The translations under genes and the position numbers were made by a program. The notes beneath the pieces were generated by a model. That model saw only the letters and a program-made list of their open reading frames with translations, had not been told where the DNA came from and searched no databases. DNA of 64,000 nucleotides, from NCBI RefSeq assembly GCF_014841125.1, contig NZ_JACYTQ010000001.1:372001-436000 (forward strand), written 5' to 3'. The stretch comes from Echinicola arenosa. GTDB taxonomy: Bacteria; Bacteroidota; Bacteroidia; Cytophagales; Cyclobacteriaceae. Below, one piece after another: positions 44,280 to 48,631 of the stretch. Position 1 is the first letter of the stretch. Every line of letters starts with the position of its first letter.

Positions 44280-45035
44280 CTATATTCTTGTACTAACTCC
44301 CTCTTTGGCCAAATACTTTTTCAAATCAGGTATGCCTATTTCTTTAAAGTGAAAAATACTGGCGGCAAGTGCCGCTTCTGCCTTTCCAGCAGTAAACACA
44401 TCTTTAAAATGCTGCATGTTTCCTGCTCCACCTGAGGCAATCACCGGAATGCTCAAAGATGACGATATTTCACTGGTAAGATCATTGGCAAAACCTGCCT
44501 TGGTCCCATCATGATCCATGCTGGTCAGCAGGATTTCGCCAGCTCCTCTTTCCGCCACTTCCTTGGCCCATTCCTGCGTTTTTAATAGAGTCGGCTTTCT
44601 TCCCCCATGCGTATGTACAAAGTCAATTCCATCAATACTTCTGGTGTCGATCGCTACGACTATACATTGACTCCCAAACTCAGCAGCCATCTCATTGATC
44701 ACTTCAGGCCTTTTAACAGCAGCGGAATTGATACTGATTTTATCAGCTCCAGCGTTTAAAAGCACCTTTACATCTTCCACTGTAGAAATCCCTCCTCCAA
44801 CGGTAAAAGGAATATTGATCGCCTTGGCCACCCTGGCAACAAGCTCGGCCAAAGTTTTTCGTTTATCTACCGTCGCGGTAATATCCAAAAACACTAATTC
44901 ATCCGCTCCTTCATCTGAGTAAATCTTGGCCAACTTCACCGGATCTCCTGCATCTCTCAAATCCACAAAGTTAACCCCTTTGACAGTTCTGCCCTCCTTG
45001 ATATCCAGACACGGTATAATTCTCTTTGTCAACAT
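44280..45035 (-). CDS. hisF: Imidazole glycerol phosphate synthase, cyclase subunit
   Basis: 251 residues from the ATG at 45035; a GTG two codons earlier is in frame but would touch the hisA stop. It is a TIM barrel with [17 protein letters not shown] (catalytic Asp about residue 9-11) and [11 protein letters not shown] (second catalytic Asp near 130). It closes the imidazole ring using ammonia from HisH. Phosphate-binding loops TVGGGIS and IASGGAGN are present. The gene is separated from hisA by only six bases. Confidence 0.97.
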
Positions 45036-45041
45036 AAGCAC

Positions 45042-45761
45042 TTAATTCACAAATTCAGCAAGTTGTTCCAATGTAATTCTTCCTTCATAGTACGCCTTGC
45101 CTACTATGGTACCGTACACTCCTATTTTCTGCAACTCCTCCAAATCTTTCACCTCGGAAACCCCTCCACTGGCTATCAGTTGAATTTCTGGAATTTCTTG
45201 AAGGATCTCTTTGTATAAATCCACCGAGGGACCTTGAAGTAATCCGTCTTTGGCCACGTCCGTACAAATCACATATTTAACACCTTTGGCATGATAGTTC
45301 TTGATAAACTCTATCACATCTGCCTCAGTAGTTTCCTCCCAACCACTAATGGCTACTTTACGGTCTTTTGCATCAGCGCCTAAGATTATTCTCTCTGAGC
45401 CAAAGCTTTTTAGCCAACTCTCAAATAAAGCTGAATTCTTAATAGCTATGCTTCCCCCTGTTACTTGTGAAGCACCTGCATCAAAAGCCATTTTGATTGT
45501 TTCGTCAGATTGAACGCCTCCACCAAAATCCACTTTCAAGGATGTGTTAGTAGTAATTTTTTCCAATACAGATCTATTGACAATAGTCTTGGCTTTTGCT
45601 CCATCCAAGTCTACCAAGTGTAATCTCCTAATGCCCGCGCCCTCAAACTTTTTGGCAATTTCTAAAGGGTTGTCAGCATATTCTTTTTTCTGTCCATAAT
45701 CACCTTGGGTCAAACGGACACATTTACCCCCAATAATATCAATAGCTGGAATAATTTCCAT
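45042..45761 (-). CDS. hisA: Phosphoribosylformimino-5-aminoimidazole carboxamide ribotide isomerase
   Basis: 239-residue TIM barrel isomerase, step 4 of histidine synthesis. [19 protein letters not shown] holds the first catalytic Asp (residue 8), VDFGGGVQ and [15 protein letters not shown] are phosphate loops, and [14 protein letters not shown] the second catalytic Asp region. It is internally repeated like HisF. Two bases separate it from hisH, consistent with translational coupling. Confidence 0.97.
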
Positions 45762-45763
45762 GA

Positions 45764-46348
45764 TTATAAATTCAAGAAGTTGGTTAATATTTTTTGACCG
45801 GAAAGGCTGCTCTTCTCCGGATGGGCCTGCATTGCATAATAATTATCCTTATGCAACAAGGCACTAAAGTCCTCCAAATAATGGGTGCTGGCTATGGTAT
45901 ATTCAGGATGGATTTCAGCAAAGTAACTATGGACATAATACACATAGTCAGTTTCATCTAATCCATTTAGCAGAGGACTTTTTAGTTCTTGGAGATTGTT
46001 CCACCCCACATGGGGCACCTTGTCCAAGGGTGGAAATTTCTTTACTTTGATGGGAAAAACCCCCAAACAGGTAGTGTCATTTTCTTCTGAATACTCACAG
46101 AGCAGCTGCTGCCCCAAGCAGATCCCGAAAAAGGGTTGCTTAAGTTCTTTGATCAATTGATCTAATTTTCTTTCCCTAAGGTATTTCATGGCAGAACTGG
46201 CCTCTCCCTGTCCGGGAAAAATCACTTTATCCGCCTTTTTGATTTCTTCCACATCATCGGTCAATTTTGCGTTGACCCCCAAACGTTCCATCGCATATAA
46301 CACCGACTGCACGTTTCCGGAATTATATTTTATAATGGCTACATCCAT
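45764..46348 (-). CDS. hisH: Imidazole glycerol phosphate synthase, glutaminase subunit
   Basis: 194-residue class I glutamine amidotransferase that delivers ammonia to HisF. The nucleophile Cys is in [14 protein letters not shown] and the His-Glu pair in [21 protein letters not shown] corresponds to the oxyanion strand region. It is the first his gene of this run; hisG, hisD, hisC and hisB, which usually precede it, are not in the window. It follows phhA after a 246-base spacer containing a hairpin. Confidence 0.97.
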
Positions 46349-46370
46349 TTAATTTCTATAAGCTAAAAAG

Positions 46371-46466
46371 CTAAATAGACCTCAAAGTCCCAAAGGATAC
46401 TTCGAGGTCTATTGCTTTGGTTTGTAATTTTTTGATCTGCTCTTTGAAAGCTTTTCTATCTCCCAT
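46371..46466 (-). CDS. Candidate 31-residue small ORF between phhA and hisH
   Basis: Starts ATG at 46466 (MGDRKAFKEQIKKLQ), about 12 bases after a full TAATTTTG box at 46478-46485 (minus strand), and stops TAG at 46371. A longer form starts at 46490 but overlaps the -7 box. The predicted peptide is a charged helix followed by a short hydrophobic end, encoded across the hairpin at 46374-46413. It has no His, so it is not a histidine attenuator. It could be a small protein, a decayed fragment or chance. Confidence 0.25.
   Translation of the reverse strand: MGDRKAFKEQIKKLQTKAIDLEVSFGTLRSI
46374..46413 (-). terminator. Hairpin upstream of hisH (terminator of phhA or regulatory)
   Basis: AATAGACCTC / GAGGTCTATT, perfect 10 bp, with an extra inner AAGT/ACTT pairing, followed on the minus strand by TTTAGCTTTTTAG. 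It separates phhA from the his genes. Confidence 0.6.
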
Positions 46467-46594
46467 TTTCAGAATACCAAAATTAAACATTATTCCCTAT
46501 TTATGAAGGTATTCTTGAGGCTATTTGGCAAAGGAGAAATTTTTCAAAATTTCAATGAAACCATTTCAAAATTGATCTCCTTACCAAGACCTCC

Positions 46595-47377
46595 CTAAGC
46601 CACTGAGGAATTGGCCAATTCCTCTTCCAAAACCTTCTCGATTTCAGGAATCGACTGGTACAATTGCTCATAACTTTCAATCACAAAATATTTATCCTGG
46701 AATTTATCTTTCCAGTAAGCTGTCTGCATGATTTTTCTGACATCATACTCAATATGGGCAGGCTCATCAGAAAGGCTAAACTTGGTTTCCCCAGCAGAAC
46801 TAAGTATTCCGGCACCATAAATTTTCAACATCCCATTTTCCCGGATCAGACCAAATTCAATGGTAAACCAATAAATTCTTGACAGTAAATGGATGGCCCA
46901 TTTATTATCAATATACTTCAAGGCAATTCCACTCAAATCTTCCAAAAAATCAACATAAGGCTGGTTGGTGAGCAAAGGCATATGAGCAAAAGCATCATGA
47001 AACATGTCTGGTTCTTCCAGATAGTCCAACTGTTCCATCTTTCTCAGCCAAGTGGAAGATGGAAAACGCCTATTTCTCAATAGGCCAAAGAATAGGTCAT
47101 CATCGATTAGCCCAGGTACCACCTGCACACTCCAACCGGTCGTTCCTCTAAGCTTTTCATTTACTTCTGCAAAATTGGCAATCCTGCCCGACCCAAAGTT
47201 AACGGCTTCTATTCCATCCAAATACGCTTGAGAAGCTGCTTTGGGAAGATTGACAATCTGTCTTTCGTAAAGGATTTTCCAAACTTTAAAGTCCTCTGAA
47301 GTGTAGGCATCATAATCTTGATGCATTTCCTGTAACCGGGGGTCCTGAAACACCCAATTTGCTGATTTTCCTGTCAT
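46595..47377 (-). CDS. phhA: Phenylalanine 4-monooxygenase
   Basis: 260-residue pterin-dependent enzyme converting phenylalanine to tyrosine. The iron ligands are His127 and His132 (MFHDAFAHMPLL) and Glu174 (WFTIEFGLI). VQVVPGLIDDDLFFGLL and RRFPSSTWLRKMEQLDYLEEPD are typical of the bacterial form, which has no regulatory ACT domain. A Tyr-rich leader peptide and attenuator lie directly upstream, so expression probably responds to tyrosine supply. No pterin-recycling gene is adjacent. Confidence 0.96.
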   Translation of the reverse strand: MTGKSANWVFQDPRLQEMHQDYDAYTSEDFKVWKILYERQIVNLPKAASQAYLDGIEAVNFGSGRIANFAEVNEKLRGTTGWSVQVVPGLIDDDLFFGLLRNRRFPSSTWLRKMEQLDYLEEPDMFHDAFAHMPLLTNQPYVDFLEDLSGIALKYIDNKWAIHLLSRIYWFTIEFGLIRENGMLKIYGAGILSSAGETKFSLSDEPAHIEYDVRKIMQTAYWKDKFQDKYFVIESYEQLYQSIPEIEKVLEEELANSSVA

Positions 47378-47437: not shown

Positions 47438-47470
47438 AAAAAGGCCTAATCCAAAATTGGATTAGGCCTT
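47438..47470 (-). terminator. Attenuator terminator before phhA
   Basis: On the minus strand AAGGCCTAATCCAA pairs perfectly (14 bp) with TTGGATTAGGCCTT across a 2-base central loop, followed by TTTTTGC. It stands 61 bases before the phhA ATG and also ends transcripts from the trp operon. Its first arm contains CCTAATCC, which can alternatively pair with GGATTAGG at the end of the leader ORF (47505-47512). Confidence 0.85.
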
Positions 47471-47505
47471 AAATATTCCTTATTGTAATGCACACAGCGT
47501 TACAC

Positions 47506-47568
47506 CTAATCCTTGAAGGGAAGGAAATGGTAATAGTAGCTATGATATTTTACTGTTGATTGCTTCAT
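47506..47568 (-). CDS. Tyr/Phe-rich leader peptide of the phhA attenuator
   Basis: 20-codon ORF, ATG at 47568, TAG ending at 47506. The peptide starts MKQSTVKYHS and continues with three consecutive Tyr (residues 11-13), then Phe15 and Phe18. Tyr8 also precedes. The last codons AAG GAT TAG carry GGATTAGG, which is complementary to the first arm of the terminator. A ribosome stalled on the Tyr run would leave this region free to form the antiterminator; a ribosome at the stop codon would cover it and allow termination. The TATATTTG promoter box ends 9 bases before the ATG. Confidence 0.75.
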   Translation of the reverse strand: MKQSTVKYHSYYYHFLPFKD

Positions 47569-47577
47569 TATGAGTGA

Positions 47578-47607
47578 CAAATATAAGTATTCCCTTTTTA
47601 AAACCAA
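47578..47607 (-). promoter_or_regulatory. Promoter of the phhA leader
   Basis: TTGG at 47607-47604 and TATATTTG at 47585-47578, 18 bases apart on the minus strand. It starts five bases after the aroF stop codon, so phhA has its own transcript. Confidence 0.6.
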
Positions 47608-47611
47608 TAAT

Positions 47612-48631
47612 TTACAATAAATCAAAGGTTTTTCTCATCGCAAATGTTTGTCGAATTTGACTTGTCAATTGGGCACTTTGTGCGAAATTCAAGGTTTGTT
47701 GACCATCAGAGTAGGCTTTTTCTGGAATTTCATGCGCTTCGTAAATAATACCATCAGCCCCTGCCATCACGCCAGCCAAAGCCATTTGATGCACAAATTT
47801 CCTGATGCCTATTCCATGAGAAGGATCTACTACCACTGGCAAATGAGACTTATCCTTCAAGATGGGAACAGCATTGAGGTCAAGGGTATTCCTACTGGCT
47901 TTTTCATAAGTTCTAATTCCCCTTTCACACAAAATCAATTTCTCATTCCCACCAGAAAACACATATTCTGCTGACTGAAGTAACTCCTCAATAGTTCCTG
48001 AAATCCCTCTTTTGATCATTACTGGTTTATCTACCTTACCCAATTCATCTAGTAGATTAAAGTTTTGGGTATTCCGGGCACCTACCTGAAAAACATCCAC
48101 ATAATCCAGCATTTCTTCAATTTGGGAAACCTGCATTACTTCAGTAATGATTTTGATCCCTGCTTCACTGGCCAATTTATGCCATAACTTTAAGCCATCA
48201 ATTCCCAATCCTCGAAAGGCATAAGGGCTACTTCTTGGCTTATAAACCCCGCCTCGCATTATTTTGATATTATTTTCTTTCAAGTGGTCAATAACCTTAA
48301 CAATCTGCTCCTCACTCTCTATCGAGCAAGGCCCAGCCATTACAGCCATATCTCCTTCTTTGATAAACACCCCATCACCAAGATCAATGGAAGTTGGTTT
48401 TACTTTCCACTTTTTTGAAACCAATTTGTAGGCATCAGAAACAATATGGATATCTTGGATTCCTTCATGGTGACCAAATTTCCTAATGTCAAATTCAGAA
48501 CTACCAATTCCCACGAGGTAAGTTCCTTCTTGGGTATTCACCTCTGTGATTTTGTAACCTATTTGATTGATTTCATTGATCAAACTTTCTTTTTGATTTT
48601 CAGAAATATCCCGTTTTACTTGTATAATCAT
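47612..48631 (-). CDS. aroF: 3-deoxy-7-phosphoheptulonate synthase
   Basis: 339 residues, first enzyme of the shikimate pathway (PEP plus erythrose 4-phosphate). An N-terminal domain of about 75 residues (IIQVKRDISENQKESLINEI) resembles the regulatory ferredoxin-like/ACT-type domain of Thermotoga-like DAHP synthases. The catalytic barrel has MAGPCSIESEEQIVKV, GGVYKPRSSPYAFRGLG, VQVGARNTQNFNLL, and VVVDPSHGIGIR with a metal-binding His. It lies last in the trp operon, three bases after trpA, which couples precursor supply to tryptophan synthesis. Confidence 0.94.
   Translation of the reverse strand: MIIQVKRDISENQKESLINEINQIGYKITEVNTQEGTYLVGIGSSEFDIRKFGHHEGIQDIHIVSDAYKLVSKKWKVKPTSIDLGDGVFIKEGDMAVMAGPCSIESEEQIVKVIDHLKENNIKIMRGGVYKPRSSPYAFRGLGIDGLKLWHKLASEAGIKIITEVMQVSQIEEMLDYVDVFQVGARNTQNFNLLDELGKVDKPVMIKRGISGTIEELLQSAEYVFSGGNEKLILCERGIRTYEKASRNTLDLNAVPILKDKSHLPVVVDPSHGIGIRKFVHQMALAGVMAGADGIIYEAHEIPEKAYSDGQQTLNFAQSAQLTSQIRQTFAMRKTFDLL

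Follow-up and report, generated by a model that had tools for sequence, protein, structure and literature searches.

Leader-peptide attenuation is a textbook mechanism. The trp, pheA and pheST attenuators of Escherichia coli make use of a protector, an antiterminator and a terminator, and their control codons lie upstream of the antiterminator arm. In the open-licence literature, leader-peptide attenuation is described for Trp, Phe, His and other amino acids. The aroR leader of Corynebacterium glutamicum lies in front of aroF; according to a review, stalling occurs under Phe limitation and the operon is unaffected by tyrosine availability (PMC11802643). The Bacteroid-trp RNA (RF01692) is listed in another paper (PMC2864571), and an article from 2010 knew of such systems in both Proteobacteria and Actinobacteria, in addition to the authors' own case from the Firmicutes (PMC2965389). 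In Echinicola vietnamensis, phenylalanine hydroxylase (PAH, Echvi_2513) is important in some defined media, and the authors of GapMind propose that it makes tyrosine in this organism, with both routes to tyrosine in use (PMC7311316).

We analyzed the region upstream of the phenylalanine hydroxylase gene phhA in a stretch of 64,000 nucleotides from Echinicola arenosa (hereafter the window), together with the corresponding regions of its relatives. This region very probably contains a ribosome-mediated transcription attenuator, at which ribosomes would stall on a run of Tyr and His codons.

The phhA leader of the window

The phhA gene (46595-47377, minus strand) encodes a phenylalanine 4-monooxygenase of 260 aa that scores above both curated cut-offs (NF008877, 268.8 bits for a cut-off of 247; TIGR01267, 265.8 bits for a cut-off of 264.75). 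The genes of the window are arranged in the order trpA, DAHP synthase, leader, phhA, hisH, hisA, hisF. The next gene after phhA, about which the first-pass annotation of the window was silent, is hisH (45764-46348, minus strand; TIGR01855, 200.1 bits), which begins 246 nt further on and is followed by hisA (45042-45761) and hisF (44280-45041), both over their cut-offs. The gap between phhA and hisH (46349-46594) contains a TAnnTTTG box, as it does in every one of the 11 Echinicola loci. There is also a strong hairpin (about 46413-46374), which our scan called in six of the 11. No His-rich leader ORF was found between phhA and hisH in the Echinicola loci, and the gap possibly holds a separate control element for hisH.

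On the minus strand, between the end of the DAHP synthase gene (47612) and the start of phhA (47377), a promoter box, a leader ORF, a set of repeated words and a T-run follow one another in order. The putative -7 promoter box, TATATTTG (47585-47578), is of the TAnnTTTG type, which we take to be the consensus of Bacteroidota, and a TTG at 47605-47607 is a possible -33 element; the predicted transcription start lies slightly upstream of the leader ATG, at a distance of a few bases. Of the 81 leaders found by the scan, 44 have a TAnnTT(T/A)G box no more than 30 nt upstream of their start, versus 25 of 486 control windows. The leader ORF (47568-47506, minus strand) has 20 codons and a stop codon and encodes MKQSTVKYHSYYYHFLPFKD, with Tyr at residues 8, 11, 12 and 13, His at 9 and 14, and Phe at 15 and 18. 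This short ORF thus holds several codons for the product amino acid (YYY and Tyr8), as do the Tyr/His clusters of the relatives. We propose Tyr8, Tyr11-13, His9 and His14 as its control codons; the two His codons had previously gone unremarked.

An intrinsic terminator is predicted between the leader and the first gene, at 47470-47438, with a stem of 13 bp (47470-47458 with 47453-47441), rather than the 14 bp given in the first-pass annotation, a loop ATTT and five T at 47442-47438. Word 2, GGATTAGG (47512-47505), lies across the leader stop codon and would be the 5' arm of the antiterminator (complementarity p=0.017). It is repeated as word 4, GGATTAGG (47452-47445), within the terminator stem, and the sequence between them contains word 3, CCTAATCC (47466-47459), a possible partner of word 2 in the antiterminator or of word 4 in the terminator. 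A single GGATTAGG word is not rare, as the 5.4 Mb genome has 62 copies on the forward strand and 75 on the reverse; in the leader region, three copies (two direct and one inverted) lie within 68 bases, beside the Tyr run. The promoter box, the 20-codon leader with Tyr11-13, Tyr8, Phe15 and Phe18, the terminator ahead of phhA, and the repeated word with its shared partner had all been reported before, and each was found again where it had been placed.

The claim that terminator and antiterminator are mutually exclusive was supported by folds in which the bases covered by the ribosome were masked (front edge placed 12 nt past the first base of the codon in the A-site), and by complementary words kept in diverged lineages. 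With word 4 absent and the A-site at Tyr11, Tyr13, His14 or Phe15, words 2 and 3 paired with a mean P of 1.00, in an antiterminator of -15.4 kcal/mol that contains a nested hairpin; when Phe18 or the stop codon occupied the A-site, P was 0.00. In these in silico folds, a ribosome stalled at the control codons therefore allows the antiterminator that excludes the terminator to form, and a ribosome at the stop codon blocks it. Phe was rejected as a third control amino acid, Phe18 being too close to word 2 and Phe15 borderline in the masked folds. The unmasked RNA is predicted to form a protector structure (47553-47485), also absent from the earlier description, in which word 2 is hidden in the absence of a ribosome; before word 4 is made, the mean P of word 2 with word 3 was then 0.04, word 2 being held by upstream sequence. 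As soon as word 4 has been made, full-length equilibrium folds give the terminator a P of 1.00 (word 3 with word 4) in every state, so control would have to be kinetic and the antiterminator would have to form first, which is the usual assumption for attenuators.

According to this model, when Tyr-tRNA (and His-tRNA) is ample, the ribosome would reach the leader stop codon and cover word 2, and word 3 would pair with word 4, leading to termination ahead of phhA. Under a shortage of charged Tyr-tRNA (or His-tRNA), the ribosome would stall on the Tyr/His run and leave word 2 free to pair with word 3, so that phhA would be transcribed and PhhA would convert phenylalanine to tyrosine. If no ribosome is present, upstream sequence would hide word 2 and the terminator would form. 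The first-pass annotation had proposed that low tyrosine stalls ribosomes at the Tyr run and frees the first copy of the word, and the masked folds, the conserved words and the Tyr runs all point in this direction.

Leaders and complementary words in relatives

We scanned about 480 nt upstream of phhA in 11 Echinicola genomes, 80 named contigs, 80 of 204 order-level genomes and 20 of 84 phylum-level genomes (those with a match), for an ORF of 14-45 codons with a terminator after it; the ORF had to start with ATG or GTG and to have at least four Tyr or His, at least one of them a Tyr, within ten residues. Such a Tyr/His-rich ORF with its terminator was present in 81 of the 191 upstream regions, whereas the scan gave no match in the 191 reverse complements and a single one in 573 dinucleotide shuffles. 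The matches came from 10/11 Echinicola regions (controls: 0/11 reverse complements and 0/33 shuffles), 44/80 named contigs, 25/80 order-level regions and 2/20 phylum-level regions, the last two (L246 and L248) belonging to the same class but lying outside the order. These counts include four genomes matched twice (L012/L020, L014/L021, L019/L048 and L100/L023), some leaderless genomes also belonging to two sets, and one match that is probably due to chance (L156); the leaders of L071 and L091 are visible in the sequence but were missed by the scan. The scan gave no leader at the loci of Belliella, Cecembia and Mongoliibacter or at many more, including 55 of the 80 order-level and 18 of the 20 phylum-level regions, and the device is therefore patchy. 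The only Echinicola locus without a leader (L018, genome G001) still has a terminator-like hairpin ahead of phhA.

The complementary words were compared in 32 hand-picked leaders representing 22 genus states. In each, we took the sequence downstream of the Tyr/His run that best complements the terminator arm, and set it against dinucleotide shuffles. Complementarity between words 2 and 3 reached p<0.05 in 22 of the 32 leaders, with a combined p of 1.6e-19, relatives not being independent; it did not do so in the other 10, among which L128, L159, L102 and the Litoribacter leader L023 were at or near the null. Measured from the first base of the last Tyr/His codon, the complement begins 7-19 nt downstream in 30 of 32 leaders (28 nt in L128 and 50 nt in L159). 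The words themselves differ between lineages: GGATTAGG/CCTAATCC/GGATTAGG in Echinicola, commonly GGAATAGG/CCTATTCC in Algoriphagus, with fourth words resembling GGAATAGG, and GCGATTTAGG versus CCTCAATCGC in Imperialibacter. MAFFT placed word 2 out of register between Echinicola and Algoriphagus and split it with a gap within Algoriphagus, and to count pairs we therefore used words without gaps, positioned relative to the stop codon. In 38 Algoriphagus-type leaders, each of the 8 core pairs can form in 35-38 of the 38. Over 11 positions, 358 pairs were observed in these 38 loci, slightly more than the mean of 352.1 obtained when word 3 and its loop were re-dealt among them (p=0.009). The signal is weak, as there is hardly any variation in word 3 and the loci are related. 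Both the Tyr codons and the complementary words are thus conserved in relatives, the absence of which had been named beforehand as grounds for abandoning the proposal.

The Algoriphagus-type leaders (38 loci, 37 distinct ORFs) have Pro3, Thr4, Pro5, Arg6, Thr7, His10, His11 and Ser12 fixed in 38/38 while the codons vary, and Tyr8 is replaced by Phe in 15/38. The peptide NPTPRT(Y/F)(V/I)HHS (at L065:2832-2885, for example) is fixed or nearly so at its non-control residues as well, which suggests selection on the leader peptide itself. Conserved control codons fit attenuation, but a conserved PTPRT goes beyond what attenuation requires; together with Ser12, it would fit a contribution of the nascent peptide to the stall.

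Tyr and His codons and the downstream genes

The amino-acid content of the leaders varies with the gene that follows phhA. Order-level leaders without hisH after phhA (neighborhoods of several kilobases) have runs of 4-7 Tyr codons in 10 of 14 cases; these include three YYYYYYY leaders (G227, G260 and G254), and the runs are broken in G023, G256, G135 and G054, which are also unlinked to hisH. In the 10 leaders inspected at codon level, the Tyr runs mix TAT and TAC codons. Both leaders from outside the order (YYYY and YYYYY) were unlinked to hisH too, their linkage having been checked only after the test. The Y7 leaders of G227 and G260 stand in front of phhA, which is followed by an aminotransferase-family gene and a gene for prephenate dehydrogenase (NF006307, 370.8 and 368.2 bits, cut-off 295). 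Loci L181 and L182, in which a Y7 leader precedes these three genes, have the appearance of a joint tyrosine operon with two alternative routes.

The clusters linked to hisH contain His in all cases but one, and include YHYHYYY, HHHYYYYY and YYYHYYH (all genus g6), HYYAHYHIY (G026), YVHHSYH (Algoriphagus), HHHH (Anditalea, whose leader has a single Tyr besides) and YHSYYYH (window); the Echinicola clusters have 4-5 Tyr and 1-2 His. Within one genus (g24), an unlinked genome (G014) has YYYY, versus YHYAYYH in a linked one (G062). The mean His share exceeds 0.2 in 9 of the 10 genus states with hisH linkage, versus 1 of the 12 without it (Fisher p=0.0002, Mann-Whitney p=0.0005). One genome (G318) was first taken as unlinked, which was then confirmed on a wider stretch; without its genus, these values are p=0.0006 and 0.0003. 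The mere presence of any His in the cluster was not significantly associated with hisH linkage (9/10 vs 7/12, p=0.12). The exceptions are G033, linked but without His, which has a TAnnTTTG box between phhA and hisH, and G054, unlinked but with two His. The length of the phhA-hisH gap was not correlated with His share (60 linked loci, rho -0.12, p=0.34); loci with a TAnnTTTG box in the gap have a lower His share (14 loci, mean 0.28, vs 46 loci, mean 0.59; p=1.9e-6), an effect that is mostly one of Echinicola versus Algoriphagus.

A device serving mainly as a histidine attenuator of a phhA-hisHAF operon, with the Tyr codons incidental or secondary, would account for the fact that 77 of 88 loci (Echinicola and named-contig sets) have an hisH start motif no further than 1350 nt from the start of phhA, for His10 and His11 being invariant in 38/38 Algoriphagus-type leaders while Tyr8 is Phe in 15, and for the HHHH of Anditalea with its single Tyr. 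It seems unlikely, however, given the Tyr-rich leaders with no his gene after phhA (the 10/14 with runs of 4-7 Tyr, including those before phhA-aminotransferase-tyrA), the excess of Tyr over His in the Echinicola clusters, and the fact that the phhA-hisH gap has a TAnnTTTG box of its own in 11/11 Echinicola loci. Tyr and His codons, both NAY, are read by tRNAs whose GUN anticodons carry queuosine, and the leader might instead sense the queuosine status of tRNA, slow decoding by under-modified tRNA inducing phhA. Asn and Asp codons are queuosine codons too, but the 81 clusters contain 22 Asn and 1 Asp among their 810 residues, versus 275 Tyr and 186 His (a biased comparison, as the clusters were chosen for Tyr and His), and such sensing would leave unexplained why the His share tracks hisH; we consider it extremely improbable.

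The other two alternatives concern the hairpin. The DAHP synthase gene ends just upstream, at 47612, and the hairpin could merely be the terminator of the upstream trp/DAHP-synthase genes, the short ORF having arisen by chance. This has very little probability, as leader and terminator persist under different upstream neighbors, whether divergent ORFs (G248, G119 and G163) or an unrelated gene (G254), as the pattern is not recovered from shuffled or reverse-complemented sequence, and as silent codon changes have occurred while Tyr and His remain. Regulation might also act on translation initiation or on the stability of the leader transcript rather than on transcription termination, consistent with the terminator always being present in the full-length equilibrium fold, but a strong hairpin with an immediate T-run about 60 nt before phhA, the start of which lies outside the alternative structures, makes this highly unlikely.

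The best reading is thus an attenuator for Tyr that acquires His codons once the operon comes to include his genes: its leader is mostly Tyr where phhA is not joined to his genes, with His codons added where hisH follows. The description 'tyrosine-responsive' in the first-pass annotation is by itself too narrow for the family, as the his-linked leaders combine Tyr and His. We see about an even chance that the attenuator is re-programmable between two amino acids, its codon run having been rewritten by evolution to follow the operon, so that a shortage of either product would open a joint Tyr/His operon. If so, Tyr would predominate in the run where the operon is phhA alone or phhA-tyrA, Tyr and His would be combined where hisHAF is attached, and the run would be almost all His in Anditalea. 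The shift of codon content with operon content constitutes a natural experiment on the change of attenuator specificity.

The genome of the window also has a prephenate dehydrogenase gene adjoining those for an aminotransferase and prephenate dehydratase, elsewhere in the genome (L183). A link between the absence of TyrA and the possession of a leader was considered and rejected: no TyrA (PF02153) match was found in 12 of the 24 order-level genomes that have a leader (not counting L156), versus 19 of 55 leaderless genomes (p=0.22), and the window's genome has TyrA. In the leader genomes without a PF02153 match, PhhA would be the sole evident route to tyrosine. The leader would provide regulatory evidence, separate from fitness data, for a role of PhhA in tyrosine synthesis in the Cytophagales. 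By eye, the gene after phhA resembles a pterin carbinolamine dehydratase gene (phhB type) in L260 (G318) and L194 (G280), and a second aromatic-amino-acid-hydroxylase-like gene follows phhA in tandem in L193 (G265).

Comparison with other leaders

Leader peptides look like a habit of the window's organism, because the same genome has a WWW leader before a trpE-like gene and an HHFHH leader before hisG. The Trp leader, MKQNHTQYWWWHTGLLDREEQLAIA (55524-55447, minus strand), has a TATATTTG box (55547-55540) and a terminator at about 55420-55385, and the gene after it is trpE-like (TIGR00564, 412 bits, below the cut-off of 517.7). It matches Bacteroid-trp weakly (19.8 bits vs a gathering threshold of 49, E 8.4). 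Its start, MKQ...Y-WWW-H, resembles that of the phhA leader, MKQ...YHS-YYY-H. The His-rich leader, MSSNQKYILSHLLFAVKHTVTVHHFHHSS (L180:1289-1378), lies upstream of hisG. Six consecutive Tyr codons occur somewhere in 47 of 148 genomes, the reversed pattern also being common; poly-Tyr as a general leader elsewhere was rejected, no ATG-started short ORF before a gene having been seen among the 30 loci listed.

A known Rfam family for the phhA leader was sought, with nothing above threshold: there was no match to the families of the E. coli trp, pheA and pheST leaders, none to RF01692 at E<=10 (gathering 49), and none at gathering among the Phe, His, Trp, Thr and Leu leaders and the T-box, just Thr_leader at 15.8 bits (gathering 55, E=1.0). 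No tyrosine-specific attenuator, and none in front of phhA, was found in the open-licence literature, and a paper in a subscription journal may exist. The first-pass annotation had likewise remarked that attenuation of a pterin-dependent hydroxylase by its product is not known as a textbook case.

The phhA leader shares the logic of leader-peptide attenuation with the E. coli trp, pheA (pheL) and pheST leaders (PMC11802643), but those leaders sense Trp or Phe, and belong to other genes and another phylum. Like the Bacteroid-trp RNA, according to the Rfam description of the latter, it would be a peptide-leader RNA of Bacteroidota for an aromatic amino acid, which for Bacteroid-trp is Trp. With the His leader peptides of Proteobacteria and those of hisS/hisZ in Bacilli (PMC2965389), it shares a short ORF with His codons followed by a terminator; unlike in those leaders, His is here mixed with Tyr, and its share follows the phhA-hisH linkage. 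A further parallel is C. glutamicum aroR, a leader peptide (there with Phe-Tyr-Phe) before an aromatic-pathway gene, at which stalling raises transcription, as is proposed here; aroR differs in its target, DAHP synthase, and in its phylum, whereas here Tyr runs precede a phenylalanine hydroxylase gene. Even this nearest leader with a Tyr codon is reportedly unresponsive to tyrosine (PMC11802643). The design of the phhA leader is thus classic, and tyrosine as the amino acid measured and phhA as the target seem to be new.
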